A stretch of 37,529 nt of DNA from a virus, in IMG/VR virus record IMGVR_UViG_3300042691_011070, positions 1-37,529 of that record; one strand, given 5' to 3'. Positions 1,767-29,986 of this stretch are shown one piece after another (the stretch's first letter is position 1; every line of letters starts with the position of its first letter). The notes below the pieces were generated by a model. The model worked only from the letters and a program-made list of their open reading frames with translations. It did no database searches and was not told the DNA's origin. The translations under genes were made by a program, and so were the position numbers.

Positions 1767-3251
1767 TTATGCTGCTTGGCGTTCGTTGTCATGATCGGCA
1801 TCCAATGCAAGGTAGCTGCGCAGGAACTTGGTATCGCTGCGGTTCTCGCGCTGCATGACGAACTTCTTAAACCCTATGGATGTGAAGTCTTGGATCGCAG
1901 TCACGCCCGGGGTACAGAAGGCGAGCACTGCATTGCAGAACTCCAACGCTGCCATGATTGACTCATAGCGTAGGGACCCACGGAAGATACGGAACTCAAT
2001 GGTCTTAGGGTTCTGTACATTGAGCGCTTCGTATCGCTCGCCCGTGTTCTTGTTGTGCGGTGTGAACTTAGCCATCTCATGCTTGATCCGGCAGTAGCCA
2101 CCGCTATACCGACGAGCAATCGAACGGATGAGCGCCTCGTTACGGACGTCATTCAAGAACGACTGAACCCGGTAGATCTGAGACTGGGTTACGTACTCCC
2201 TACCCACGTGGACATGGAAGCCGCAGCGTCCACCCTCATGTGAGCGCATACCCTTCTTGACCTCGTTGTTGGTCAGGAACAGAGCGAACTTCTCGCGGTG
2301 TACGTCAAGGCCAGCAGGCTGAGTGATTAGCTCGAAGCCCTCACCAATAGACCCGTCACGCTCGAAGTAGCAATACTCACCTACTTGTCCGCCCGGGTTG
2401 AGCAGCTCATGCACCCGCCCAGCTGCGACAGTTGGTTGCCCAGTCCGAACCTCGACCTCCAGCTCGCAACCGAAAGCGCGGCGGTTAGACTTGAACCAAG
2501 GCGACTCAATAACATTGAAGCCTTTGTTGCGTGAGCTGTGATAGTTGTCGATCAGTCCCTGATAAGGACTCCAGCTGGTATCGTGGTAGATCTGACGCCG
2601 CGCATCATAGACAACGTTGGATCTGCGGCGGTCATGTATCTGAGTCGTTTGCCCATGCACAAAGACAGGAACTGCGAACTCAGTGAGGACCAAATATCCA
2701 TGTGCATCTTCGACTCGAGCGCCATCGTTCATTAACGTTTGTGCGCAGGCACTGCAGCATGTCTCTTGGCGAGCGTACTCGGTGGCATTGCCCTGCAGAA
2801 CTCTTCTGCGTTCGCCTCTTTCGAGGTGACCACATTCCTCTCGTTGAATGCTGTGCTTCTGTGCTACGCCGAGCATCCATTCCTCTTGGCCTTGCTCTGC
2901 AAACTTAGGCAGGTACTCTTCAATCAGTGGAACTACATTGACTCCGCTATCTGTGAGGCGGTCACGCTTGATGTAATCCATCAAGAAAGTGATACGCAAG
3001 CAGGACTGCGGATGGGTACGCTTATACTTCTGAAGCCTGTCTCTGATATCGTCAGGCACGGAGCCGAAAGCAATGACGTCTGATACAACGATGGCGTCGA
3101 TCAGTACAGCCCACTTGTTATCGCCTACTCTGTGGCCGCTTGCCCGAGAGATAGACTTGAGCATTCGCTTGAGCAACATATCAAGGAATGTTTCGCGCTG
3201 GAATCCCGTCGCCAACAACCGCTGACGGGCATAGGTGTATAGCTGGATCAT
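1767..3251 (-). CDS. Amidoligase with glutamine-synthetase-like fold
   Basis: The C-terminal half carries the motif series of Amidoligase_2-type enzymes (glutamine synthetase fold), which form amide bonds using ATP: FGCELEVE (about 260-267), RDGSIG (298-303), CGFHVHVG (343-350), RYEALN (406-411) and TIEFRIFRGS (417-426). The acidic and His residues of these motifs would bind metal and nucleotide. The N-terminal 250 residues are unrecognised but hold a Cys/His cluster (C140, H142, C165, C166, C169) that could bind zinc. I chose the internal ATG because AAGGAG lies 6 nt before it; an upstream in-frame ATG at 3287 has no such site. Length is 494 residues. It is followed by the class II glutamine amidotransferase, a known partner type for these ligases. 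The substrate is not readable from sequence. Confidence 0.85.
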   Translation of the reverse strand: MIQLYTYARQRLLATGFQRETFLDMLLKRMLKSISRASGHRVGDNKWAVLIDAIVVSDVIAFGSVPDDIRDRLQKYKRTHPQSCLRITFLMDYIKRDRLTDSGVNVVPLIEEYLPKFAEQGQEEWMLGVAQKHSIQREECGHLERGERRRVLQGNATEYARQETCCSACAQTLMNDGARVEDAHGYLVLTEFAVPVFVHGQTTQIHDRRRSNVVYDARRQIYHDTSWSPYQGLIDNYHSSRNKGFNVIESPWFKSNRRAFGCELEVEVRTGQPTVAAGRVHELLNPGGQVGEYCYFERDGSIGEGFELITQPAGLDVHREKFALFLTNNEVKKGMRSHEGGRCGFHVHVGREYVTQSQIYRVQSFLNDVRNEALIRSIARRYSGGYCRIKHEMAKFTPHNKNTGERYEALNVQNPKTIEFRIFRGSLRYESIMAALEFCNAVLAFCTPGVTAIQDFTSIGFKKFVMQRENRSDTKFLRSYLALDADHDNERQAA

Positions 3252-3279
3252 GTGAATCTCCTTAAGGTTGAAATATAGA

Positions 3280-3330
3280 AGAGGCAACCGTCCCCTTCAC
3301 TGAAAGTGAGGGGCGGGTGCCGGTGGTTGT
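3280..3330 (-). promoter_or_regulatory. Leader hairpin element L1
   Basis: In the 5' leader of the amidoligase gene a stem of CCCC plus TCAC pairs with GTGA plus GGGG (3292-3313), with a single bulged T and a 5-nt loop. CAACC and GGTTG on either side can pair as an outer stem. A close copy stands before the gene starting at 4803 and a looser one before the gene starting at 7309. There is no T-run, so it is not a simple terminator. The hairpin overlaps the stop codon of the upstream 112-residue gene. An RNA processing or stabilising hairpin (RNase III-like) is the most natural guess. Confidence 0.5.
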
Positions 3331-4890: not shown

Positions 4891-5097
4891 CTAGGGACGG
4901 GGGAGGATGCCGAGCAAGTCGATCCTCTGCTGCTGGGTATCAGGTGCCTGATCTTTGGAGGGCGGCGTAGCAAGATCGATGAGCTGGTTGGTCAGCCGCT
5001 GGTATTCCAAGCAGATGTCTAAAGCTTCGGCGTACAGTTGGTACTGTGTATCCGAGCTGAGGTACATGAACTGCTCACGAGTCATTGGTTTCTTCAT
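4891..5097 (-). CDS. Hypothetical early protein, 68 aa
   Basis: I do not recognise this helical protein (MTREQFMYLSSDTQYQLYAE in the N-terminal part). I placed the start 5 nt after AAGGAG. The same frame is open back to an ATG at 5202 that overlaps the upstream stop (TAATG) and has AAGGAAG in front, so a 103-residue form is possible; its extra 35 residues look unlike a folded domain. If the short form is right, 5098-5201 is a non-coding leader with no feature I can name. Confidence 0.55.
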   Translation of the reverse strand: MKKPMTREQFMYLSSDTQYQLYAEALDICLEYQRLTNQLIDLATPPSKDQAPDTQQQRIDLLGILPRP

Positions 5098-5201
5098 AGG
5101 ATCTCCTTTCAGTTGTCGTTTTCGCCACAGCACGGAACGATCAGATGACTGACTGCCTGCTGGGCATGAGTCTGTGGTATCTCGAGGGAAAGGCAACAGC
5201 A

Positions 5202-5378
5202 TTACTCTTCCTTGCGATCAGCGATGGCACGGATCTTCATCCATGTATCGAAGATCACCTCTGAATCTCCTGTTGCTATTGCATCACCGATACGGTGCAG
5301 TGCTAACTTGTGCTGCTCTATCACCCAGTCTTTGACACGCAGTCGGTTCTCTAGAACCATACGATCGTTGTCGTTCAT
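5202..5378 (-). CDS. Hypothetical small early protein, 58 aa
   Basis: This short gene starts 5 nt after AAGGAG and overlaps the upstream stop by ATGA. The 58 residues begin MNDNDRMVLENRLRVKDW and end IRAIADRKEE. The composition is that of a small soluble helical protein. No family recognised. The ribosome binding site, the start/stop overlap on one side and adjacency on the other support it as a real gene. Confidence 0.6.
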   Translation of the reverse strand: MNDNDRMVLENRLRVKDWVIEQHKLALHRIGDAIATGDSEVIFDTWMKIRAIADRKEE

Positions 5379-5590
5379 GTTGTCTCCTTGTTACGTTTCT
5401 TCAGCCCTTTGAATGAAAGAACATCTATTGCGAAGCCAAAGATCTTCTGTTCCGCTTCAGTTGCGTTGTTCCACATCTCTTCATGCATGCGTTTGTACTC
5501 CTTGAGCTTGGCTGTGTTGCTCAGCGCTAAGAACTTGCGCTCACTCATGCGGTGTGGTCGAGGCGGCAGGTTCAGTTTTGGTACGTTCAT
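5375..5590 (-). CDS. Hypothetical early protein, 71 aa
   Basis: The product has a Pro-rich start (KLNLPPRPHRMSERKFLAL) and then a charged helix (KLKEYKRMHEEMWNNATEAE), and ends in a basic stretch (GLKKRNKET). AAGGAG lies 5 nt before the ATG. Both ends overlap neighbouring genes by 4 nt. No domain, signal or membrane segment recognised; function unknown. Confidence 0.6.
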   Translation of the reverse strand: MNVPKLNLPPRPHRMSERKFLALSNTAKLKEYKRMHEEMWNNATEAEQKIFGFAIDVLSFKGLKKRNKETT

Positions 5591-5880
5591 GTTGTCTCCT
5601 TATTAACATACAAAAAGCGGGAAACCTCTGGCTCCCACATCCCAAGAATCATTGGCGCCAAAGACCATAAGAGAGCCAGTAAGAATCCATAAGGTTCTTC
5701 GACCCTGAGTGCGGTAGAGAGGAAGAAGATGACGGTGAAGGTAAGGATGGAACAGGTGAGTGAGAGCATCCCAACCAACAAGAGAACCAGATTGGATCTG
5801 CGGTACATGACGATGCCTGTATCAACCCGATCGTCGTAGCAGGCACAGCCTCGTTCGTAGCAGGATTGTTCGATGATCAT
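5587..5880 (-). CDS. Two-TM membrane protein with Cys-rich N-terminus
   Basis: Residues about 30-57 (NLVLLLVGMLSLTCSILTFT onward) and 64-82 form two strong hydrophobic segments joined by a short polar turn. The N-terminal 28 residues hold three Cys (7, 12, 14) in SCYERGCACYDD. An inner membrane location is likely. I took the ATG following GGGAGGG; it overlaps the upstream stop (ATGA). It could be a superinfection-exclusion, anti-host or holin-like protein, but nothing in the sequence decides this. Confidence 0.6.
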   Translation of the reverse strand: MIIEQSCYERGCACYDDRVDTGIVMYRRSNLVLLLVGMLSLTCSILTFTVIFFLSTALRVEEPYGFLLALLWSLAPMILGMWEPEVSRFLYVNKETT

Positions 5881-6182
5881 TTGCCCTCCCTTAGTTCGCA
5901 CTTGCCCGGAGAGAGGTCACATTCAGGCCAAGCTGTACACCCGAGGTGTGGATCTTGGAGCCGATAGCTTAGATTGTTGATCACCATGTCTGGATCGCAA
6001 GCGCCGTCAACTTTCCAGTCGCCTGCCTTGATGGCTGCCAGCATCATCTCTAACGCCTCATGCATTAGCTGTTCGTCAGCTTTGATCCTGTCCTTGAGCG
6101 CCTCGATCTCTTCCTTCTTAGCGCAGTAGTCCAGCCATAGATGACGGAGAGTCCCGTCGAAGTACTTTGTTGGGTCGTTCAT
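5877..6182 (-). CDS. Hypothetical early protein, helical with Cys-rich tail
   Basis: The first 60 residues are a probable coiled helix (CAKKEEIEALKDRIKADEQL). The C-terminal third holds four Cys (about 62, 82, 88, 94) in DGACDPDMV, GCTAWPECDL and SPGKCELREG, which may bind a metal. The ribosome binding site is weak (GGGGTGA), but the ATG overlaps the stop of the preceding tiny membrane gene, which suggests coupled translation. Function unknown. Confidence 0.6.
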   Translation of the reverse strand: MNDPTKYFDGTLRHLWLDYCAKKEEIEALKDRIKADEQLMHEALEMMLAAIKAGDWKVDGACDPDMVINNLSYRLQDPHLGCTAWPECDLSPGKCELREGK

Positions 6183-8030: not shown

Positions 8031-8105
8031 CGCGGAGTAGCGCAGCGGTAGAGCGGCGGACTCATAATCCGCAGGTCGGTGGTTCGATTCCATCCTCCGC
8101 AACCA
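8031..8105 (+). tRNA. tRNA with CAU anticodon, initiator-like (fMet-type)
   Basis: A complete 75-nt cloverleaf with encoded CCA. The acceptor stem has six pairs (GCGGAG/CTCCGC) below a C1.A72 mismatch. The anticodon arm is GCGGA-CTCATAA-TCCGC, giving CAU, and the T arm is GGTGG-TTCGATT-CCATC. A73 is the discriminator base. The C1.A72 mismatch is the formylation signal of bacterial initiator tRNA. However, of the three G:C pairs expected at 29-31/39-41 only two are present (A31:U39), the D stem has elongator-like C11:G24, and G12.A23 is mismatched. It is therefore an initiator-like hybrid rather than a clear copy of a host tRNA. It lies just upstream of the late genes. Confidence 0.9.
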
Positions 8106-19984: not shown

Positions 19985-20929
19985 ATGGCAATTAAGTTTA
20001 CCAACAACGCCACCACGACCCTAGCGTCGTCTATAACAGCTTCAGCTACGTCTATACCTCTGTCTGTCGGCACTGGCGCACTATTTCCGGCTGTTACTAC
20101 CGCAAGCGGGGACTACTTCTACGCCACCCTTGTTGACTCGAGCAACAACATCGAAATCGTCAAGGTAACCAATAGGGCGACAGACACGTTGACTGTGGTG
20201 CGAGGTCAGGACGGCACTACAGCTAAAGCTTACATTGGCGGCGACAGATTTGAGTTGAGGCCGACCGCTGCTGCGCTGATAGATCTTGGTGAGGGAATCA
20301 ACATCAGTGACCTTCCCGCTGGTACCACTTTAGGTGGAAGCGCCATCGTAACGCCAGCGGCAACTCAGACGCTCACCAACAAGACCCTGACGTCGCCAAC
20401 TATCACAACCCCTTCCATTAGTAGCCCGAGTCTGACAGGCACTCCGACCGCGCCTACTGCGGCGTCTGGTACGAATACCACGCAGATTGCGAGCACCGCA
20501 TTTGTGGAAGCCGCGCTAGACACGTTGATACCAATCGGCACGAAGATGCTGTTTCAACAGACGGCGGCGCCAACCGGCTGGACGAAAGACACTACGCACA
20601 ACAACAAAGCGCTGCGGGTGGTGTCTGGCGCAGCAAGCTCTGGCGGTACGTTGGCGTTTACATCGGCATTTACATCGCAGGCAGTAGGAGGAACAGTAGG
20701 GGCCACGACACTCACAACGACACAGATTCCAAGCCACACACACACTGCGGGTGCTGCATTTGCAACCAGCGTGGCCGCAAAAGGCGGTACGAATGTTAGG
20801 ACTACTGCCACAACGGGCACCGCTACCGGAGGAACTGGCGGTGGCGGCTCTCACGATCACACTTTTACCGGAGCAGCTATCGATCTCTCCGTTCAGTACG
20901 TTGACGTAATCATCGCCACTAGAAACTAA
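19985..20929 (+). CDS. Tail fibre with His-rich tip
   Basis: The 314-residue protein has an N-terminal domain with DYFYATLVDSSNNIEIVKVT and TLTVVRGQDGTTAKAY, a middle of TLTNKTL..PTI-type triplet repeats (about 120-165), a conserved TAFVEAALD segment and a C-terminal domain with PTGWTKDTTHNNKALRVVSG. The tip contains HTHT and SHDHTF, like metal-binding His clusters in trimeric fibre tips, and ends with the frequent fibre ending SVQYVDVIIATRN. It probably recognises the host surface. Confidence 0.8.
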   Translation: MAIKFTNNATTTLASSITASATSIPLSVGTGALFPAVTTASGDYFYATLVDSSNNIEIVKVTNRATDTLTVVRGQDGTTAKAYIGGDRFELRPTAAALIDLGEGINISDLPAGTTLGGSAIVTPAATQTLTNKTLTSPTITTPSISSPSLTGTPTAPTAASGTNTTQIASTAFVEAALDTLIPIGTKMLFQQTAAPTGWTKDTTHNNKALRVVSGAASSGGTLAFTSAFTSQAVGGTVGATTLTTTQIPSHTHTAGAAFATSVAAKGGTNVRTTATTGTATGGTGGGGSHDHTFTGAAIDLSVQYVDVIIATRN

Positions 20930-21523: not shown

Positions 21524-22063
21524 ATGGAAGCTAAGGCATACCCAGCGTTTGGCTACGTGCTAGTTCGCTGCAAGATCAATGCAGGGGAAATCATCAACGA
21601 CATATCCGTAGATAACGGCGTGATGACGATCGACGCTGTAAACGAGGATGGAGTTGCGACGATAAAGAACAGCGGGTACGTGTGGCTGCAGATCCTTGGA
21701 CAGCAGACGTATACCGAACAGGCGACAGGCAACGCCACTATTCACTTGCCGGGTTGGTGCAACCTTGTGGATGATATTGCGGCAGGAATGCACAACATTC
21801 ACGTCGATGCGTACAGCGAGCACATCTGCTTAGCAACGCACCTGAACGAACTTCGTAATCCAAAGATGCCGTCGCTGTCGCTTTTCAAGATGGTCGCCGG
21901 AGAGCAGAGGGCTCTGCCGCAAGACACAAAGTTGTATTTGGTCGAAGGCGTTCTTGATATTGCCGGAAGGAAATTCCCCGGCATGAGACAGATCCATTTC
22001 CAATCTGGAGCGAAGACGGTTGTCGCGGACGCCGACTGCATGGGCTTCGTTTTTAACATGTAA
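21524..22063 (+). CDS. Hypothetical beta-rich protein, 179 aa
   Basis: The protein is probably a beta sandwich: YVLVRCKINAGEIINDISVD, then IHLPGWCNLVDDIAAGMHNI and LYLVEGVLDIAGRKF. The last part (KMVAGEQRALPQDTKLYLVE) reads like a cupin-type barrel without its metal His residues. It lies between fibre genes and the oxygenase-desaturase cluster and could belong to either. Function unknown. Confidence 0.5.
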   Translation: MEAKAYPAFGYVLVRCKINAGEIINDISVDNGVMTIDAVNEDGVATIKNSGYVWLQILGQQTYTEQATGNATIHLPGWCNLVDDIAAGMHNIHVDAYSEHICLATHLNELRNPKMPSLSLFKMVAGEQRALPQDTKLYLVEGVLDIAGRKFPGMRQIHFQSGAKTVVADADCMGFVFNM

Positions 22064-22071
22064 GGAGTGCC

Positions 22072-22608
22072 ATGTTCGCGCCGTTCCCTCTTAATATCGA
22101 CACTAAGGATGTTTTCTTGGCTGTTGAGCAACTGTTTTGCAACGGTGAGTACATGAAACAGCAGAAGTACGGCGTTGCGCTTCTGAGACAGAAGTCGTTC
22201 ACATCTGTTCCAAACCGCGTGTACGACACCAAAGAGGAAGATGAGAAACGAGTCATTGCGCAGCTCCCGGATAAACTACTAGAGATCGAGGTCCCTCGGC
22301 TTTGGGTGCTGAACATTCAGGCCACCCATGACGAAAAGGTAATGCTTGCTCCGCATACTGATATTGGGCGAGTCACCACTGTCAACTTCTACAGCAACAC
22401 GAACGGAGAACGCACCTGCTTCTACGAGTATGGTGCGGGCGGTTCAATCAAAGAGATAGGTAGCTTTGTTGCCAAGGATGGAGAAGCATGGGTTCTTGAT
22501 GTGAGTAAGCCTCATGGGGTAGAGCTAATACCCGGGAAAACGCGTCGAGTTCTGTCTCTTTCATTTCTCACAACTCCTTACGAGCGCGTGATGGAAGCGC
22601 TTTCATGA
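22072..22608 (+). CDS. 2OG-Fe(II) oxygenase-like protein (first of two)
   Basis: The double-stranded beta-helix core shows a plausible Fe(II) and 2-oxoglutarate triad: HTD (H95, D97) in LAPHTDIGRVTTVNFYSN, distal H148 in VSKPHGVELI, and an Arg at 158-159 before LSLSF for the 2OG carboxylate. Such enzymes hydroxylate or demethylate proteins, nucleic acids or small molecules. AAGGAG precedes the ATG. It is directly coupled (TCATGATG) to the desaturase gene, which suggests related substrates or joint regulation. Length 178 is small but normal for phage members. The substrate is unknown. Confidence 0.75.
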   Translation: MFAPFPLNIDTKDVFLAVEQLFCNGEYMKQQKYGVALLRQKSFTSVPNRVYDTKEEDEKRVIAQLPDKLLEIEVPRLWVLNIQATHDEKVMLAPHTDIGRVTTVNFYSNTNGERTCFYEYGAGGSIKEIGSFVAKDGEAWVLDVSKPHGVELIPGKTRRVLSLSFLTTPYERVMEALS

Positions 22609-23372
22609 TGCGATTGTCGGAGTTTACGAAGCTGCGCCTCACTATGTTGATGGTGCATATCGCCGCAGTCTTCGGGGTGGTTCTGCTTTGGGATCCAAAG
22701 TGGCTGTTGTTAAGTGCCGCGTGCAGCGTTCTTTTTCTTTGGGTCGGGCAGGAGATGTACTGCCACCGTTATCTGTGCCACAGGTCGTTCAAGATGCCAT
22801 TGTGGGCGCAAAGACTGTGCGCTGTTCTATCGATATACAACTTGTACGGAAACCCGATCGGGATTGCGGCAACGCACACTACACACCACAAGTACTCTGA
22901 CACGGACCGCGACCCGCATCCTTCTTCCACCCCTTGGCAATCGTGGTTCTGGGTATCGAAGAACTTTGGAAAGTCGATTGACCAAGGGACGGCAAAGCGC
23001 CTAATGCAGGATCCTTGGTTGAACTTCATGGCGCGGCACTACCTTAAAATCTACCTGAGCACTCTGTTCGTGATAGGTCTGGTTAGCCTGAAAGCGCTAG
23101 TGTACGGGCTGCTCGTTACGCATGTGTACGCCTTTTTTGCAAACGGGCTGGTGACTGTTTTTTGCCACGGCAAAGGCTACAGAACGCATGACACGCGAGA
23201 CACCTCAACCAACAACCATTGGGTGAACTTGATGCTGGGGTGGAATGGGGTCGCGTTCCACAACAACCATCACGCAAAGCCTACGCGGTTCACAACCTCA
23301 GAGAGTCGGAGTGAGGTCGATTTGATCGGTGTAATTATTCGGGTTCTGTTTGCCAAAGAAAAGGCGTTATGA
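22605..23372 (+). CDS. Fatty acid desaturase
   Basis: This is an integral-membrane di-iron desaturase of the acyl-CoA / acyl-lipid delta-9 type, which introduces a double bond into an acyl chain using O2 and electrons. The three His boxes are present: HRYLCH (54-59), HTTHH (91-95, within HTTHHKYSDTDRDPH) and HNNHH (219-223). NNH at 203-205 lies before box 3, as in stearoyl-CoA desaturases. Hydrophobic segments lie at about 11-29, 32-48 and 150-185. At 255 residues it is short but has the complete catalytic set. Start and stop overlap the flanking oxygenase genes. A desaturase in a podovirus tail/lysis region is unusual. No ferredoxin or cytochrome b5 domain is present, so host electron donors would be needed. 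Confidence 0.9.
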   Translation: MMRLSEFTKLRLTMLMVHIAAVFGVVLLWDPKWLLLSAACSVLFLWVGQEMYCHRYLCHRSFKMPLWAQRLCAVLSIYNLYGNPIGIAATHTTHHKYSDTDRDPHPSSTPWQSWFWVSKNFGKSIDQGTAKRLMQDPWLNFMARHYLKIYLSTLFVIGLVSLKALVYGLLVTHVYAFFANGLVTVFCHGKGYRTHDTRDTSTNNHWVNLMLGWNGVAFHNNHHAKPTRFTTSESRSEVDLIGVIIRVLFAKEKAL

Positions 23373-24061
23373 AGTGCTCATTAAACTACATGTTTCCGAC
23401 TGCAGTAGGCAGTTTTGAAAGCGACAACCACAAAGAGTACAAGCGAATTTTTATGGATCGCCTCCCTGAGCATTGCATTCATCATGAGGGTGGCGGGCTA
23501 ATTGCCGGGGAAAGTAGCGGTAAGGTTTATGTGCACACTGACTCAGAGTTAGAAGGACTCTTCCGTTTTATTTCTGCTGGTGTCGCGGCGTACCTTGATC
23601 AGCTTGCGTTCGACCGCTCAAGAGTTGATATCAACATCGTCAAGACTTGGGTCAGCGCAACAAACAACAACACCGTTACTCCAGTGCATGCACACGCCAC
23701 AAGTCACTTGTCGTTTGTGTACTACATGAACATGCCCAAAGAGGCAGACGCCATAGCGTTCCAGATTCCAGCGTCGCCAAATGAGCCATTCTATGGAGCG
23801 TTTGGAGCATCAACACCGAGGCAGCGCTCATTGGTGCTGGATAGGAATGCGCTAAACGCGAACCAGTCTGTGCTAACGGTAGAAGAGGGGCAGCTGCTTG
23901 TGTTCCCAAGTCACTTGATGCACGGCACAGTGAAATTGGGCGACATGGGTGATGAGACAAGAATCTCGCTGGCAGGGGATGTTTTGTTAGTGTTCAACGA
24001 GGAGGCCCCGAACTATGCGACCGGTGTGTTCGACCCGCGAACATGGAGAGTGTTTAACTAG
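23369..24061 (+). CDS. 2OG-Fe(II) oxygenase (second of two)
   Basis: The pattern TPVHAHATSHLSFVYYMNMP (H107, H109, H113) and later GQLLVFPSHLMHGT (H182, H185), then DETRISLAGDV (R198), fits the 2OG-Fe(II) oxygenase family common in marine and freshwater phages. In that family HxH.....LS.VYY begins the core and an H / R.S pair ends it. The exact iron ligands need alignment. Its ATG overlaps the desaturase stop (ATGA). Substrate unknown; an acyl-chain, lipid or fibre-protein target would suit the context, but this is inference. Confidence 0.8.
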   Translation: MKCSLNYMFPTAVGSFESDNHKEYKRIFMDRLPEHCIHHEGGGLIAGESSGKVYVHTDSELEGLFRFISAGVAAYLDQLAFDRSRVDINIVKTWVSATNNNTVTPVHAHATSHLSFVYYMNMPKEADAIAFQIPASPNEPFYGAFGASTPRQRSLVLDRNALNANQSVLTVEEGQLLVFPSHLMHGTVKLGDMGDETRISLAGDVLLVFNEEAPNYATGVFDPRTWRVFN

Positions 24062-24080: not shown

Positions 24081-24638
24081 ATGGAGCCAATATCAACAAT
24101 CGCCGCTGTATTCGCTGGGGCACAGGCTGCGGTTGAAGGCGTAAAGAAAGCTGTAGCCCTAGGCAAAGAGATCCGCGACGTCTATCAAGAGATTAGCGTC
24201 TTCTTCCAAGCTCAAGGGAAGATCGAAGCAGAGGCAAAGAAGCAAGAGTTCGAAAAGGCAGTTGCTCCCATCGAGAGAAAGCGGTCGGCCACGCAACGTG
24301 CGCTAGACATTGTTTTCATGCGACGTGAAATGCAGCGCATGGAGACAGAGCTTCGAGAGATGCTCATCTATCAGTTTAGTGAGGCAGGTCTTTACGCAGA
24401 GATGTGCCAAGAGAGGGACCGCATCATCGCTGAGGAGCGAGCTGAACAGGAAGAAGAGCAACGTAAAATCAACGAAGCAATCCTCGAAGAGAAGCGACGT
24501 CTGAGAACGATACAAAAAGAGAAGCAAGAAAGGATGGACGCCATCATCAATTCGGCGGCTGTTTTCGTGGGCGCGAGTATTAGCATAGCTATTATCTGCG
24601 GGATCATTTGGATGTTTCAACAGGGGGGCAGGTTATGA
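24081..24638 (+). CDS. Coiled-coil protein with C-terminal TM
   Basis: The N-terminus (PISTIAAVFAGAQAAVEGVK) is an amphipathic helix, residues about 45-150 are a long charged coiled coil (MRREMQRMETELREMLIYQF; RAEQEEEQRKINEAILEEKR), and residues about 156-178 form a membrane anchor (AAVFVGASISIAIICGIIWM). The ATG follows GGGGG by 7-8 nt. It precedes the holin with an overlapping stop, so it may take part in lysis control or in a membrane-linked virion assembly step. Family not recognised with certainty. Confidence 0.55.
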   Translation: MEPISTIAAVFAGAQAAVEGVKKAVALGKEIRDVYQEISVFFQAQGKIEAEAKKQEFEKAVAPIERKRSATQRALDIVFMRREMQRMETELREMLIYQFSEAGLYAEMCQERDRIIAEERAEQEEEQRKINEAILEEKRRLRTIQKEKQERMDAIINSAAVFVGASISIAIICGIIWMFQQGGRL

Positions 24639-24940
24639 GGCTGCGCACTAAGCAAGACTGGATGCAACAGAAATGGCGCCCGATGATGGCGATCACATAC
24701 ATGGTCATTAACATCTGCGACTTCATCCTATTCCCTGTGTTGTGGACTCTGGTGCAATTCGGTGAGATTGAGTCAGCTAACGATGCGTTCCGCCAATGGG
24801 CTCCCATGACGTTGCAGGGCGGTGGCTTTATACACATTGCATTCATGGCAATCCTCGGAATCTCTGCTTGGACTCGTGGGCAAGAAAAAATCGAGGCAAT
24901 CAAGCAGGGAAAGACTGATGCTGAATCTTCAGACGATTAA
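24635..24940 (+). CDS. Holin-like protein (3-TM type)
   Basis: The 101-residue protein has hydrophobic segments at about 18-40 (MMAITYMVINICDFILFPVL, then WTLVQF) and 60-80 (GGGFIHIAFMAILGISAW), with charged ends (EKIEAIKQGKTDAES). The KWRPMM.ITYMVIN and LTLQGGGF-like patterns match phage holins of the 3-TM / GTA type, which permeabilise the inner membrane at lysis. It overlaps the Rz gene and precedes the endolysin. I used the ATG after GGGGGGC rather than an upstream TTG. Confidence 0.75.
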   Translation: MRLRTKQDWMQQKWRPMMAITYMVINICDFILFPVLWTLVQFGEIESANDAFRQWAPMTLQGGGFIHIAFMAILGISAWTRGQEKIEAIKQGKTDAESSDD

Positions 24941-25409
24941 ATGGATATTGATAGGGCTGGTTGTGGCTGCGGCATTTGGCGCGGGGTGGAGCTGGAACGG
25001 CGCCCGTCTTCAGGCTGCATGGGATGCGGAGAAGGCAGAGCTAAATGCAAAGGCTGTGGAGTCTGTTCAGGTTGCAATGAATCAGGCGCTCGAGGCGGAG
25101 CGAGATGCAGCAAAACAGATTGCAGCGACGTCAGCCAAGTATCAAAAAGCTCTCAAGGAGAAACAGAATGAAGAAGCTGCTGCTATTGAGCGTTCTCGCA
25201 ATGGCGGGTTGTACATCAACGCCAAGTGTCCGAGTGGTGGAAACGGTGTGTCCGAAACCTCCACCTCCTCCAGCGGACGTGATGGTGAAACGCGAGTCGA
25301 ACTTCCTCGAGCGGATGGAGAGTTTCTTATCAGGCTCGCCGCAGAAGCCGATCGCGTCACCGAGCAACTGAATTCTTGTCAACAACTCCTCGAACAGCAA
25401 TCTAAATGA
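24918..25409 (+). CDS. Rz: i-spanin (Rz-like)
   Basis: The inner-membrane spanin has an N-terminal anchor (IKWILIGLVVAAAFGAGWSW, about 6-25) and a periplasmic coiled coil (about 30-100: AAWDAEKAELNAKAVESVQV onward). Its C-terminus is helical and ends NSCQQLLEQQSK. With the o-spanin it fuses inner and outer membranes at lysis. The start is the ATG within the holin gene's end; an upstream in-frame start at 24822 lies deep inside the holin gene. The o-spanin gene is nested inside in another frame, as in lambda. Length 163. Confidence 0.85.
   Translation: MLNLQTIKWILIGLVVAAAFGAGWSWNGARLQAAWDAEKAELNAKAVESVQVAMNQALEAERDAAKQIAATSAKYQKALKEKQNEEAAAIERSRNGGLYINAKCPSGGNGVSETSTSSSGRDGETRVELPRADGEFLIRLAAEADRVTEQLNSCQQLLEQQSK
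25168..25371 (+). CDS. Rz1: o-spanin lipoprotein (Rz1-like), nested in Rz
   Basis: The frame embedded in Rz begins MKKLLLLSVLAMAGC, a lipoprotein signal with lipobox AMAGC (Cys15 is the lipidation site). A Pro-rich segment PKPPPPPADV follows, as in other Rz1 proteins. AAGGAG precedes the ATG. The mature part is 53 residues. It anchors in the outer membrane and pairs with Rz. Nesting, lipobox and Pro tract together make the call firm. Confidence 0.88.
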   Translation: MKKLLLLSVLAMAGCTSTPSVRVVETVCPKPPPPPADVMVKRESNFLERMESFLSGSPQKPIASPSN

Positions 25410-25825
25410 TCAACTCCAGAGACATTAAAGAACTCCTTCCGGTTGTGCGTGAGAAGGTTGAAAAGTTCCAGCAGTTGTGCAAAGAGAACAACATCGATCT
25501 ATTGATCACTTCAACCTTCCGGGACGCTGAGAGCCAGAACGCGCTCTACGCTCAAGGCCGTACAGCCCCGGGGAAAATTGTCACAAACGCCAAAGCTGGG
25601 CAGTCATGGCACAACCATCGGTGCGCTATTGATGTAGTCCCACTCGTCAACGGTAAGGCCAACTGGAACACCAAAGACCCGGTGTGGAAAAAGCTAGGTG
25701 AGTTGGGCAAACAAGCTGGGCTGGAGTGGGCGGGTGAATGGAAGAAGTTCAAGGAGATGGCGCACTTCCAGTACACAGGTGGGCTGACATTGGCACAGCT
25801 TCAGGCTGGCGGAAAGGTTGCGTGA
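25406..25825 (+). CDS. Endolysin, M15-family peptidase
   Basis: The 139-residue protein belongs to the VanY/M15 peptidases, which cut peptide cross-links of peptidoglycan (L-Ala-D-Glu or D-Ala-type bonds). Motifs: STFRDAESQNALYAQGRT, SWHNHRCAIDVVP with Zn ligands H69 and D76, and EMAHFQY with E117 (catalytic) and H120 (Zn). No signal peptide, so release depends on the holin. Both ends overlap neighbours (ATGA and TGATG). Confidence 0.9.
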   Translation: MINSRDIKELLPVVREKVEKFQQLCKENNIDLLITSTFRDAESQNALYAQGRTAPGKIVTNAKAGQSWHNHRCAIDVVPLVNGKANWNTKDPVWKKLGELGKQAGLEWAGEWKKFKEMAHFQYTGGLTLAQLQAGGKVA

Positions 25826-27262: not shown

Positions 27263-29986
27263 ATGGCTGGCTTGAAAATCATGACGCAGGGTGGGTATGT
27301 GCCCCGCGTAGCAGCTCACCTGCTGGCAGACAACGAGGCGCAGCTCGCGCTCAATACCAAGTTGTATTCAGGTGACTTGCGTTCTTGGAAAAAGCTCGGA
27401 CTTCTATCCCCATCAATCACAGTTCAACCAGACACAAAGACCATCTTCAAGGGGAAAAGGAGTAACGGGAACGCTCTGTGGCTTTCGTGGCTTGACGCTG
27501 TGGACGTGGTGAGCAATCCGCTTACCGACGAAGACAACCCCATGTCGATCTATTACACCGGAGACGGCGCGCCAAAAAAGACAAACTCCGCGCTTGCCGG
27601 GATAATACAAGGTGTCTCGCCTCAAGACTGGTTGTACATGGGCGTACCAGCGCCGACTGATGCAATCAGTACAGCAAAAGGAGCGGCTAGCTTAGGCGAG
27701 ATCGAAGTGACGAACGGCGGATCTGGGTACAGCTTTGTGCCCACCGTGTCTATTGCGGGTGGCGGTGGTTCAGGAGCTGCTGGTGTGGCGGTGGTCTCTC
27801 AAGGCGTTGTAACGGACATTACGATGACCAACGTGGGCGCTGGCTATACCTCAAACCCGACCATTACGATTTCTGGTGCGGGCGGCTCCGCTGCAACAGC
27901 GACTCCGCGTAGGGGGAAGGTCACAGCCATATCCGTCACAGACGGTGGTACTGGTGGAAAGGTGGCCTCGATTAGCATTACAGCCACGGGGAAAGACTAT
28001 ACCTCAGCGCCTACGGTTGTGTTCTCTGGTAGCGGCACTGGCGCGGCGGCAACCGCAACTGTTTCTGGCGGCAAAGTCACCGGAATCACTCTCACAAACC
28101 CGGGCAAAAACTATCTAACGCCTCCGGAAATTTCTTTCACGGGTGGTGGAGGCTCTGGGGCTGAGGCGACAGCAACCCTCGGCACAGGTTTTTCTACAGC
28201 TCCGACTGTAACGTTCTCCGGTCCCGGCGCTGGCGCAGAGGCAACCGCATTCATTTCAAATGGTGTTCTAGTTGCTATCGTAGTAACCAACGGGGGCAGT
28301 GGCTACACATCAACTCCAACCGTTACCATTACTGGCACTGGAGCTACTGGCGCCACGGCGACTGCTACCGCCAACACTGGTGTGATTGCTGGGGTAAACA
28401 TAACTAACGGCGGTTCTGGTTATGGTCCAGTAGTTTCACTCACTGGTGGAGGCGGCACCGGCGCAACAGCTGAGCCTGTTGTGGACAATGGCGTCATTAC
28501 TTCAATCAGGCTCACCGACGCTGGGAGTGGCTACACCTCTGAGCCAACGGTCAGTATAACTGGTGGGGGTGGGAGCAGCGCCACTGCACAAGCTAAGTTC
28601 CGGACTGCTGAAACGCGCGTTTACACCTACACGTTTGTATCAGAGTTCGGCTCTATTCTAGAAGAGTCCGCCCCAGCGCCAATCTCGAGCGAGGTGAACA
28701 CCTCCAGTGGGCAGGAGGTAATCCTCAGTAACTTTTCTGCGCCCCCTCAGGTCAACTACAACATCACCAAAATCCGTATCTATCGGTCTGTGACTGGTAG
28801 CAATGCCACTTCCTTTCTGCTCGTTGATGAGATTAGTGCCCCGAGTACTCAATACACCGACAACAAGACATCAGCTGAGTTGGGTGAAGTGCTTCCTACG
28901 CTTGGGTGGAATGAGCCGCCCGCAGACCTGAGTGGCTTGTGCCTGTTGCCTAACCAATTTATGGCTGGCTTCAAGGGCAACCGCGTTTACTTCACACCAG
29001 TCAATGCCTTTCATACTTTCCCGGAAGAGTGGTCGATATCAGTGGGCGCCGACATCGTTGGAATCGATGTGTTCGGTCAATCGTTGGCTGTTATGACCAA
29101 GAACTACCCGTTTATTATTACAGGCAGCACGCCTGAGTCGATGTCCGCTGAGCGCGTTCCGATTCTCGAGCCGTGCGTATCAAAGAGTTCGATTGCTTCC
29201 GATGGTAGTGGTGTGATGTACGCAAGCCCGAATGGCATGTGCGTTATCAGCCTTGGAGTGCAGGGTCTCGCCACAGGGAACCTGATGCTCAGGGACAACT
29301 TCCAGAAGTTCAACCCAGCGACGATCGTTGGGGCGATGTTCGACGGCAAGTACTTTGGGTTCTTTAATGATGGCGCTGAGGTAATCAAGCAAGGCTCGTT
29401 CATATTGGATCGTGTCGTTCAGGCAACCCCCCTTACGCTAAGCAGTATTACAGCTTCTGCAGTGTTTGTTGATGATGATTCAGCAACGCTTCTGCTTGTT
29501 TCGAACAACATCATTCAGCGGTGGGAGGGCGATGAAATCAATACGCTCCCGTATGAATGGAAGAGCAAGCGGTTCGTCTTTGCTTCCCCCGCGAACTTGG
29601 GCGCCATTGAGGTTGATGGATCCTTTGACAGCATAGCCAACGCCGAGAATCTCCAGCAAAGGATTGCTCAGATTATCGCGGAGAACCAAGCACTGTTCGC
29701 TACCGGGGCGTCGCTCGGAGGAACTCTCAACGACATGTCCATGAACAGCCGAGATCTGAACGGCTCCATCCTTCAGAACATTCCGCAGATAGTGGATGAT
29801 GTCTATCTGCTTGTAGAGCTCTACTCTAATGGGGAGCTGGTACACACAGGTCAATACACAAGTAACGGTGTGTACCGGTTGCCGTCCGGCTTCAAGGGTC
29901 AAGTCTTTGAGGTCAAGCTTTCCGGCAACATCGAGTGCCGATACGTGAAGCTTGCTGAGACCATGAAGGAACTGAAGACGTTATGA
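27263..29986 (+). CDS. Tail nozzle-like protein with GSGYT repeat insert
   Basis: The flanks match short-tailed-phage tail nozzle/tube proteins: WLDAVDVVSNPLTDEDNPMS, YYTGDGAPK and GVPAPT before residue 131, then TRVYTYTFVSEFGSILEESA, PFIITGSTPESMSAERV and VMYASPNGMCVISLG after residue 445. Between them, residues about 146-445 are an insertion of about eight units with the pattern (V/I)TNGGSGYTSxPTVxIxGxGxxGAxATAxVxxGxV. The usual protein lacks this block, so the length (907) exceeds the family norm by about 300 residues. The repeats probably form a beta-rich projection from the tail. AGAGGAAA precedes the ATG. Confidence 0.75.
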   Translation: MAGLKIMTQGGYVPRVAAHLLADNEAQLALNTKLYSGDLRSWKKLGLLSPSITVQPDTKTIFKGKRSNGNALWLSWLDAVDVVSNPLTDEDNPMSIYYTGDGAPKKTNSALAGIIQGVSPQDWLYMGVPAPTDAISTAKGAASLGEIEVTNGGSGYSFVPTVSIAGGGGSGAAGVAVVSQGVVTDITMTNVGAGYTSNPTITISGAGGSAATATPRRGKVTAISVTDGGTGGKVASISITATGKDYTSAPTVVFSGSGTGAAATATVSGGKVTGITLTNPGKNYLTPPEISFTGGGGSGAEATATLGTGFSTAPTVTFSGPGAGAEATAFISNGVLVAIVVTNGGSGYTSTPTVTITGTGATGATATATANTGVIAGVNITNGGSGYGPVVSLTGGGGTGATAEPVVDNGVITSIRLTDAGSGYTSEPTVSITGGGGSSATAQAKFRTAETRVYTYTFVSEFGSILEESAPAPISSEVNTSSGQEVILSNFSAPPQVNYNITKIRIYRSVTGSNATSFLLVDEISAPSTQYTDNKTSAELGEVLPTLGWNEPPADLSGLCLLPNQFMAGFKGNRVYFTPVNAFHTFPEEWSISVGADIVGIDVFGQSLAVMTKNYPFIITGSTPESMSAERVPILEPCVSKSSIASDGSGVMYASPNGMCVISLGVQGLATGNLMLRDNFQKFNPATIVGAMFDGKYFGFFNDGAEVIKQGSFILDRVVQATPLTLSSITASAVFVDDDSATLLLVSNNIIQRWEGDEINTLPYEWKSKRFVFASPANLGAIEVDGSFDSIANAENLQQRIAQIIAENQALFATGASLGGTLNDMSMNSRDLNGSILQNIPQIVDDVYLLVELYSNGELVHTGQYTSNGVYRLPSGFKGQVFEVKLSGNIECRYVKLAETMKELKTL
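27698..28600 (+). repeat. Coding tandem repeats (GSGYT units)
   Basis: About eight imperfect units of roughly 90-110 bp encode GYTSxPTVTI followed by Gly/Ala/Thr-rich turns and a short strand pair. Some units are shortened or fused (around 27940-28000 and 28170-28230), a sign of past unequal recombination. The block is clean at both ends relative to conserved tail protein motifs. Confidence 0.7.

Follow-up and report, generated by a model that had tools for sequence, protein, structure and literature searches.

The locus examined here raises the question of why a phage should carry a membrane fatty-acid desaturase locked between two oxygenase-like genes, and whether the three products serve a single function. 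Within the window, i.e., the whole 37,529-base stretch of viral DNA that was analysed, three intact, overlapping genes lie on the plus strand: OXYA (22072–22608, 178 aa), assigned as a small 2OG-Fe(II) oxygenase from its AlphaFold fold and conserved residues; DES (22605–23372, 255 aa), a membrane di-iron fatty-acid desaturase of the short phage form; and OXYB (23369–24061, 230 aa), a PF13759 (2OG-FeII_Oxy_5) protein. Both junctions are 4-nt ATGA start/stop overlaps (22605–22608 and 23369–23372), in agreement with the first-pass annotation; such overlaps are common in phages and, taken alone, suggest only co-translation. The tail/lysis surroundings claimed for the cassette are likewise recovered: a tail-fibre gene (19985–20929; phrog_8469, 6.6e-29) lies upstream, and a holin-like gene with a weak match (24608–24940; phrog_3427, 4.6e-5; PF11351, 0.009, under the cut-off) and an M15 endolysin gene (25406–25825; PF13539, 2.4e-12) lie downstream, all on the same strand.

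The gene content of the window is consistent with a podovirus-like phage, since large terminase, portal/head-tail adaptor, major head protein, tail fibre and internal virion protein are all encoded. The internal virion protein (27263–29986; phrog_511, 6e-136) is interrupted at approximately residues 134–430 by inserted repeats of the GGSGYTSxPTVTITG type. On the minus strand, a gene for an amidoligase-like protein (1767–3287; phrog_2443, 2.9e-9) lies beside another (673–1725) whose product starts MCILIHQPK and resembles a class II glutamine amidotransferase. The sole tRNA found, tRNA-Met (CAT) at 8031–8105, separates the leftward genes from the rightward structural genes.

For DES, the only PF00487 match in the window, the Pfam profile search gives an E-value of 2.6e-15 (57.3 bits, cut-off 29.7). 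All three His boxes attributed to it are present, HRYLCH (54–59), HTTHH (91–95) and HNNHH (219–223), corresponding to HX4H, HX2HH and HX2HH patterns (H54/H59, H91/H94/H95 and H219/H222/H223), with a ninth histidine, H188, between the second and third boxes. The protein aligns with mouse SCD1 (4ymk) over residues 12–241 (2.2e-10) with all nine histidines kept. Furthermore, in a comparison of 120 desaturases (115 phage and five cellular sequences), H54, H59, H91, H94, H95, H188, H222 and H223 are invariant and H219 is found in 115; the degenerate active site that had been named as a refuting case is therefore not observed, the di-iron histidines being intact. Four residues before the ninth histidine, SCD1 has an asparagine and DES has T184, a position that is occupied by N in 74 and by T in 16 of the 120 relatives and is not a defining one for PF00487. 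Two long hydrophobic stretches (7–52 and 146–187), each of hairpin length, were found when a four-TM, two-hairpin arrangement was checked for. In the tree, DES falls inside a phage clade to which many desaturases of tandem arrays belong. A recent acquisition from a host is not supported: the nearest relatives are phage sequences, and the cellular desaturases compared, only five sequences from plasmids and one MAG, lie farther away.

For OXYA, a Pfam search at E 0.1 gave no family, not even Asp_Arg_Hydrox (PF05118), and there is no PHROG match either. Its AlphaFold model, built from 15 sequences, has a pLDDT of 91.2 and shows a double-stranded beta-helix fold. The top structure matches (VIA) are 2OG oxygenases with Z scores of 11.5–9.6, led by 6n1f_B (Z 11.5, rmsd 3.2, 144 residues) and followed by BesD (6nie, 11.0), proline 3-hydroxylase (1e5r, 10.7) and AspH (10.3). 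Residues P94, H95, D97, H148 and R158 are invariant among the 15 relatives; H95, D97 and H148 are predicted as the iron ligands and R158 as the 2OG-binding residue. On the basis of this model, OXYA is assigned to the 2OG-Fe(II) oxygenase superfamily, and at that level only, as the Z scores lie close together and identify the superfamily and not the substrate. The best-matching characterised enzymes have amino acids, peptides or nucleosides as their substrates.

OXYB is recognised directly by profile (PF13759, 6.8e-15, 55.7 bits, cut-off 27; phrog_81, 7.5e-25) and aligns with structure 2rg4 at E 0.0034. H107, H109, H185 and R198 are invariant in seven relatives; the canonical HxD/E motif is absent from OXYB, its place being taken by H107-x-H109. 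Catalytic identity with HxD enzymes is therefore not to be assumed, and OXYB is filed as a PF13759 protein only. The description of the flanking genes as two different 2OG-Fe(II) oxygenase-like genes holds for OXYA, through its fold and triad, and for OXYB at the level of its family. In two larger phages of another kind, a relative of OXYB stands together with a PF13640 oxygenase (L013 5986–7265 and L014 5986–7286).

Close relatives of the cassette were then compared. One contig (L002) carries near-identical DNA, and the three-gene order, which had been proposed as something to look for in other phage genomes, recurs in L003, L004 and L005 with full-length homologues at 70–78%, so that the arrangement is not a chance one. 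Against these homologues, dN is 0.13–0.23 for the three genes (0.13–0.18 for OXYA and DES against L004) and dS is saturated, so that no dN/dS ratio is computable; judged from these values, the cassette genes are under purifying selection. A degenerate pseudogene is ruled out by the intact catalytic residues together with this selection.

More divergent relatives, L010 and L011, bear on which genes travel together. In both, the flanks are conserved (20933 gene 78–80%, 21223 gene 57–61%, OXYB 75%), whereas the block between them is diverged and permuted: the window order w21524, OXYA, DES, then OXYB is replaced by a w21524-like gene (30%), a DES-like gene (23%), an OXYA-like gene (34%), then OXYB, and the DES-like/OXYA-like junction is again a 4-nt overlap. 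The gene w21524 (21524–22063, plus strand, 179 aa) co-varies with the DES/OXYA block, its identity being 67% in L004/L005 and about 30% in L010/L011. Its product has neither a Pfam match over the cut-off nor a PHROG match, and its AlphaFold model is poor overall (pLDDT 54.5), the confident part being a small beta-barrel-like C-terminal third; the structures matched by the 67 C-terminal residues, beta-barrels of many functions, were set aside. The simplest reading of these alignments is that DES and OXYA were exchanged as one unit, w21524 included, and that OXYB stayed with the flank. This suggests that the DES/OXYA pair moves together, and it makes a single function for all three genes less certain.

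Two further features of these contigs were recorded. In L005, a further 2OG oxygenase gene (5509–6060; PF13640, 1.1e-16) stands after the next tail-fibre gene, adjoined by a small unassigned gene at 4985–5512. In L011 (9361–12567), the phage lysis region is followed by bacterial-looking genes, among them copper oxidase and TolC-like ones, an arrangement suggestive of a prophage whose host is Comamonadaceae-like. The copper oxidase at the contig end is 81–83% identical to Comamonadaceae plasmid proteins, a weak lead to the host because such genes are mobile.

The reading preferred here, to which roughly an even chance is given, is that the cassette serves late-region editing of host acyl chains by DES acting with OXYA; more broadly, the three iron- and oxygen-using enzymes probably edit host fatty-acid chains during infection. 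From its family, DES would, as a membrane di-iron enzyme, draw electrons from a host donor and consume O2 in placing a double bond in a host fatty acyl chain. From the linkage, we infer that OXYA, a soluble protein, would most likely use O2 and 2-oxoglutarate to oxidise the acyl compound of DES or its head group. OXYB, co-transcribed but following the tail-fibre flank, might act on a related or a separate substrate, and is the weak step of the scheme. Candidate carriers of the chain are host ACP, CoA and phospholipid, as suggested by relatives of DES that lie beside phage ACP genes. As an outcome, the acyl make-up of an envelope lipid would be expected to change late in infection, and the candidate benefits are late envelope remodelling, a surface change or a dedicated product. 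Membrane-lipid remodelling may also tune holin/spanin action, as had been proposed, gene position being the one observation that bears on this point.

How general the pairing is can be judged from phage desaturases at large, where the comparative evidence comes nearly entirely from uncultured contigs, fragments included. The statement that membrane desaturases are rarely seen in phages applies to cultured phages, since among 50,697 annotated isolate records only Pelagibacter phage Mosig matches DES (tblastn), but not to uncultured ones, as a two-pattern scan of viral contigs found 547 loci encoding DES relatives, the 80 best being retained. A scan of genome contigs gave one distant relative only. 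At least two desaturases occur in 30 of the 39 records tested, and one record has up to nine. Five or more diverged desaturase genes stand in tandem or near-tandem in L045 (4214–9748), L039 (957–9719), L063 (457–9770), L062 (2397–6211) and L047 (3528–7185), the neighbours of the last array being genes of a T4-like phage (UvsW-helicase-like, sigma-factor-like and SbcD-like).

A count of motifs near to and far from desaturases (50/124 vs 42/162, P 0.011) gave a weak excess, and the iterated OXYA profile behind its gene strings may have drifted; a record-wide test using uniterated-alignment and PF05118 matches was therefore used instead. In that test, 13 of 35 oxygenase matches fall within 1.5 kb of a desaturase, vs 3.0 expected under random rotation (21 contigs; P 1e-4, the lowest value that 10,000 rotations can give). 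All records but L011 and L101 had been chosen by desaturase, and near-duplicates had been weeded out manually. Many phage desaturases have no recognised oxygenase neighbour, those of L031 (beside ribonucleotide reductase), L035 and L047 among them, so that the association is frequent and not obligatory. Such homologues had been named as evidence against the proposal, which they partly contradict. The argument that coupling means one function gains independent support for DES and OXYA, from the L010/L011 exchange and the proximity in 21 contigs, and is less certain for OXYB, which follows the flank.

The likeliest alternative, itself considered unlikely, is that the genes are independent cargo sharing a late operon only, DES being a membrane-fluidity auxiliary gene of a sort reported before and OXYA and OXYB acting on proteins of the phage or the host, for instance the neighbouring tail fibre. 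The oxygenase-free relatives agree with it, as do the position of the cassette after a tail-fibre gene, that of the PF13640 oxygenase of L005 after its next fibre gene, and the presence of protein and amino-acid hydroxylases among the nearest characterised folds of OXYA; virion proteins could just as well be the substrates of oxygenases encoded near tail genes. A membrane-fluidity role has moreover been proposed for viral desaturases (PMC7300359). The alternative accounts poorly for the joint exchange of DES and OXYA between related phages and for the clustering of small oxygenases near desaturases in unrelated contigs.

Evidence from acyl-carrier genes concerns the wider family. An acyl carrier protein gene occurs in 12 of 42 records, AcpS in six, all within those 12, and ketosynthase in six. 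Among records of at least 30 kb, a desaturase is found within 1 kb of ACP in 5 of 10 (1.2 expected, P 0.003), and ketosynthase shows such proximity in 4 of 6 (0.76 expected, P 0.0015); the gap between ACP and the PF05118 oxygenase is 55–215 bp in all four records compared. Two of these records, G014 and G015, also have a large-terminase gene (E 1.9e-62 or better). ACP genes beside phage desaturases were located in L045 (2–337, 3089–3517), L044 (242–493, 2095–2469), L061 (1298–1552, 3154–3528), L058 (6513–7065), L086 (3575–3874, 5732–5968), L063 (8801–9043) and L065 (6435–6677); often accompanied by AcpS-like, SDR-like and KSIII-like genes, they form a possible phage acyl biosynthesis cluster. 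These loci are distant relatives, the window DES being about 30% identical to their desaturases, so that function is not confidently carried over to it. In the window itself, the profile search found no ACP (PF00550), AcpS, ketosynthase, AMP-ligase (PF00501) or rubredoxin (PF00301), and no electron donor for DES was identified; the carrier linkage is therefore informative on the wider family and not on the window. The earlier suggestion that the acyl chains are bound to another molecule gains support from the ACP, AcpS and ketosynthase genes that adjoin desaturases in other phages.

Two further readings draw on this linkage. The window may represent a minimal phage-borne acyl pathway, in which desaturases and small 2OG oxygenases act on chains held by phage or host ACP to give a specific oxidised, unsaturated lipid or metabolite and not mere membrane fluidising; this view, unreported in the literature searched, is regarded as unlikely. 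Less probable still is a dedicated small acyl product, i.e., an oxidised, unsaturated fatty acid or tailored lipid made on host ACP by a trimmed form of the phage desaturase-array/ACP/AcpS/ketosynthase cluster. Contigs with 3–9 desaturases plus ACP, some also with AcpS, ketosynthase and a PF05118 oxygenase, are in line with such a product, as are the bacterial polyyne clusters, which use three desaturases and an ACP (PMC8406139). The window, with one desaturase and the other cluster genes missing, is not; of 27 records, a single one has an acyl-AMP ligase match (cut and below the cut-off), and rubredoxin likewise occurs in one record only.

LpxO and OlsC, both PF05118 oxygenases, hydroxylate the acyl chains of lipids. 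A surface change of lipid A or an ornithine lipid by such hydroxylation combined with desaturation, blocking a second phage for example, is very improbable here. In its favour, PF05118 proteins are among those near phage desaturases; against it, OXYA has no match to PF05118 and the cassette has no lipid A-specific gene.

Collectively, late acyl-chain editing by DES and OXYA is supported by their intact catalytic residues, the low dN, the block swap, the proximity of oxygenases, the oxygenase/desaturase pair of phage Mosig, the ACP/ketosynthase linkage and the place of DES in the tandem-array phage clade; the missing acyl-carrier genes and electron donor, the oxygenase-free relatives, an OXYA fold that does not specify the substrate, the distance of the ACP loci and the possible action of tail-region oxygenases on virion proteins weigh against it. 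If it is correct, a function would be gained for the OXYA-type oxygenase family, which is missed by Pfam and PHROGs. So far, viral desaturases have been accounted for by a role in membrane fluidity under cold or salt; the repeated pairing with small 2OG oxygenases and, elsewhere, with ACP, AcpS and ketosynthase points to a more specific phage acyl chemistry. Relatives of the cassette recur in many uncultured phages, in some of them with a fatty-acid carrier protein, a hint of a little-known phage route to reworking lipids.

Comparison with known systems places the cassette as follows. Cyanophage lipid desaturases are reportedly the subject of Roitman et al. 2018. OXYB belongs to the cyanophage phrog_81/PF13759 oxygenases, with about 33% identity to proteins of Prochlorococcus phages P-HM1 and MED4-213; it differs in adjoining a desaturase, none of the DES kind being found in those phage records (tblastn), and in its conserved HxH first motif. 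SCD1 (4ymk, 4zyo) has 339 aa vs 255 for DES, and the alignment does not imply an acyl-CoA substrate for DES. The alkyne/polyyne clusters (PMC8406139) share desaturase arrays and ACP with some other phage loci; the polyyne-cluster reading of the window was rejected, as it has one desaturase instead of three and the ACP, acyl-AMP ligase and rubredoxin are missing. Viruses of Arctic brine and sea ice encode viral fatty acid desaturases (vFAD) that are, like DES, phage-borne PF00487-type proteins with three His boxes; several copies per virus are reported for them (five in each of two cryopeg viruses); no oxygenase or ACP partner is described for them in the accessible part of the source (PMC7300359), whereas DES is overlapped on both sides by 2OG-oxygenase-family genes. 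A Baikal phage desaturase has also been described (PMC7678222). The closest counterpart among isolates is Mosig EXVC030M (MT647606, L017), where a short desaturase gene in the vicinity of tail-fibre genes is directly preceded by a small oxygenase gene annotated Asp_Arg_Hydrox; this desaturase is 28% identical to DES over 79%, and the locus differs from the window in its long metabolic cluster (aminotransferase, FMN reductase, methylase) and in having no annotated PF13759 neighbour. In the literature searched, which mostly excludes subscription journals, no report links phage desaturases to oxygenases or ACP, a weak indication of novelty given that coverage. Viral desaturases as such were known already; what would be new is their overlap and linkage with 2OG oxygenases and, elsewhere, with ACP.
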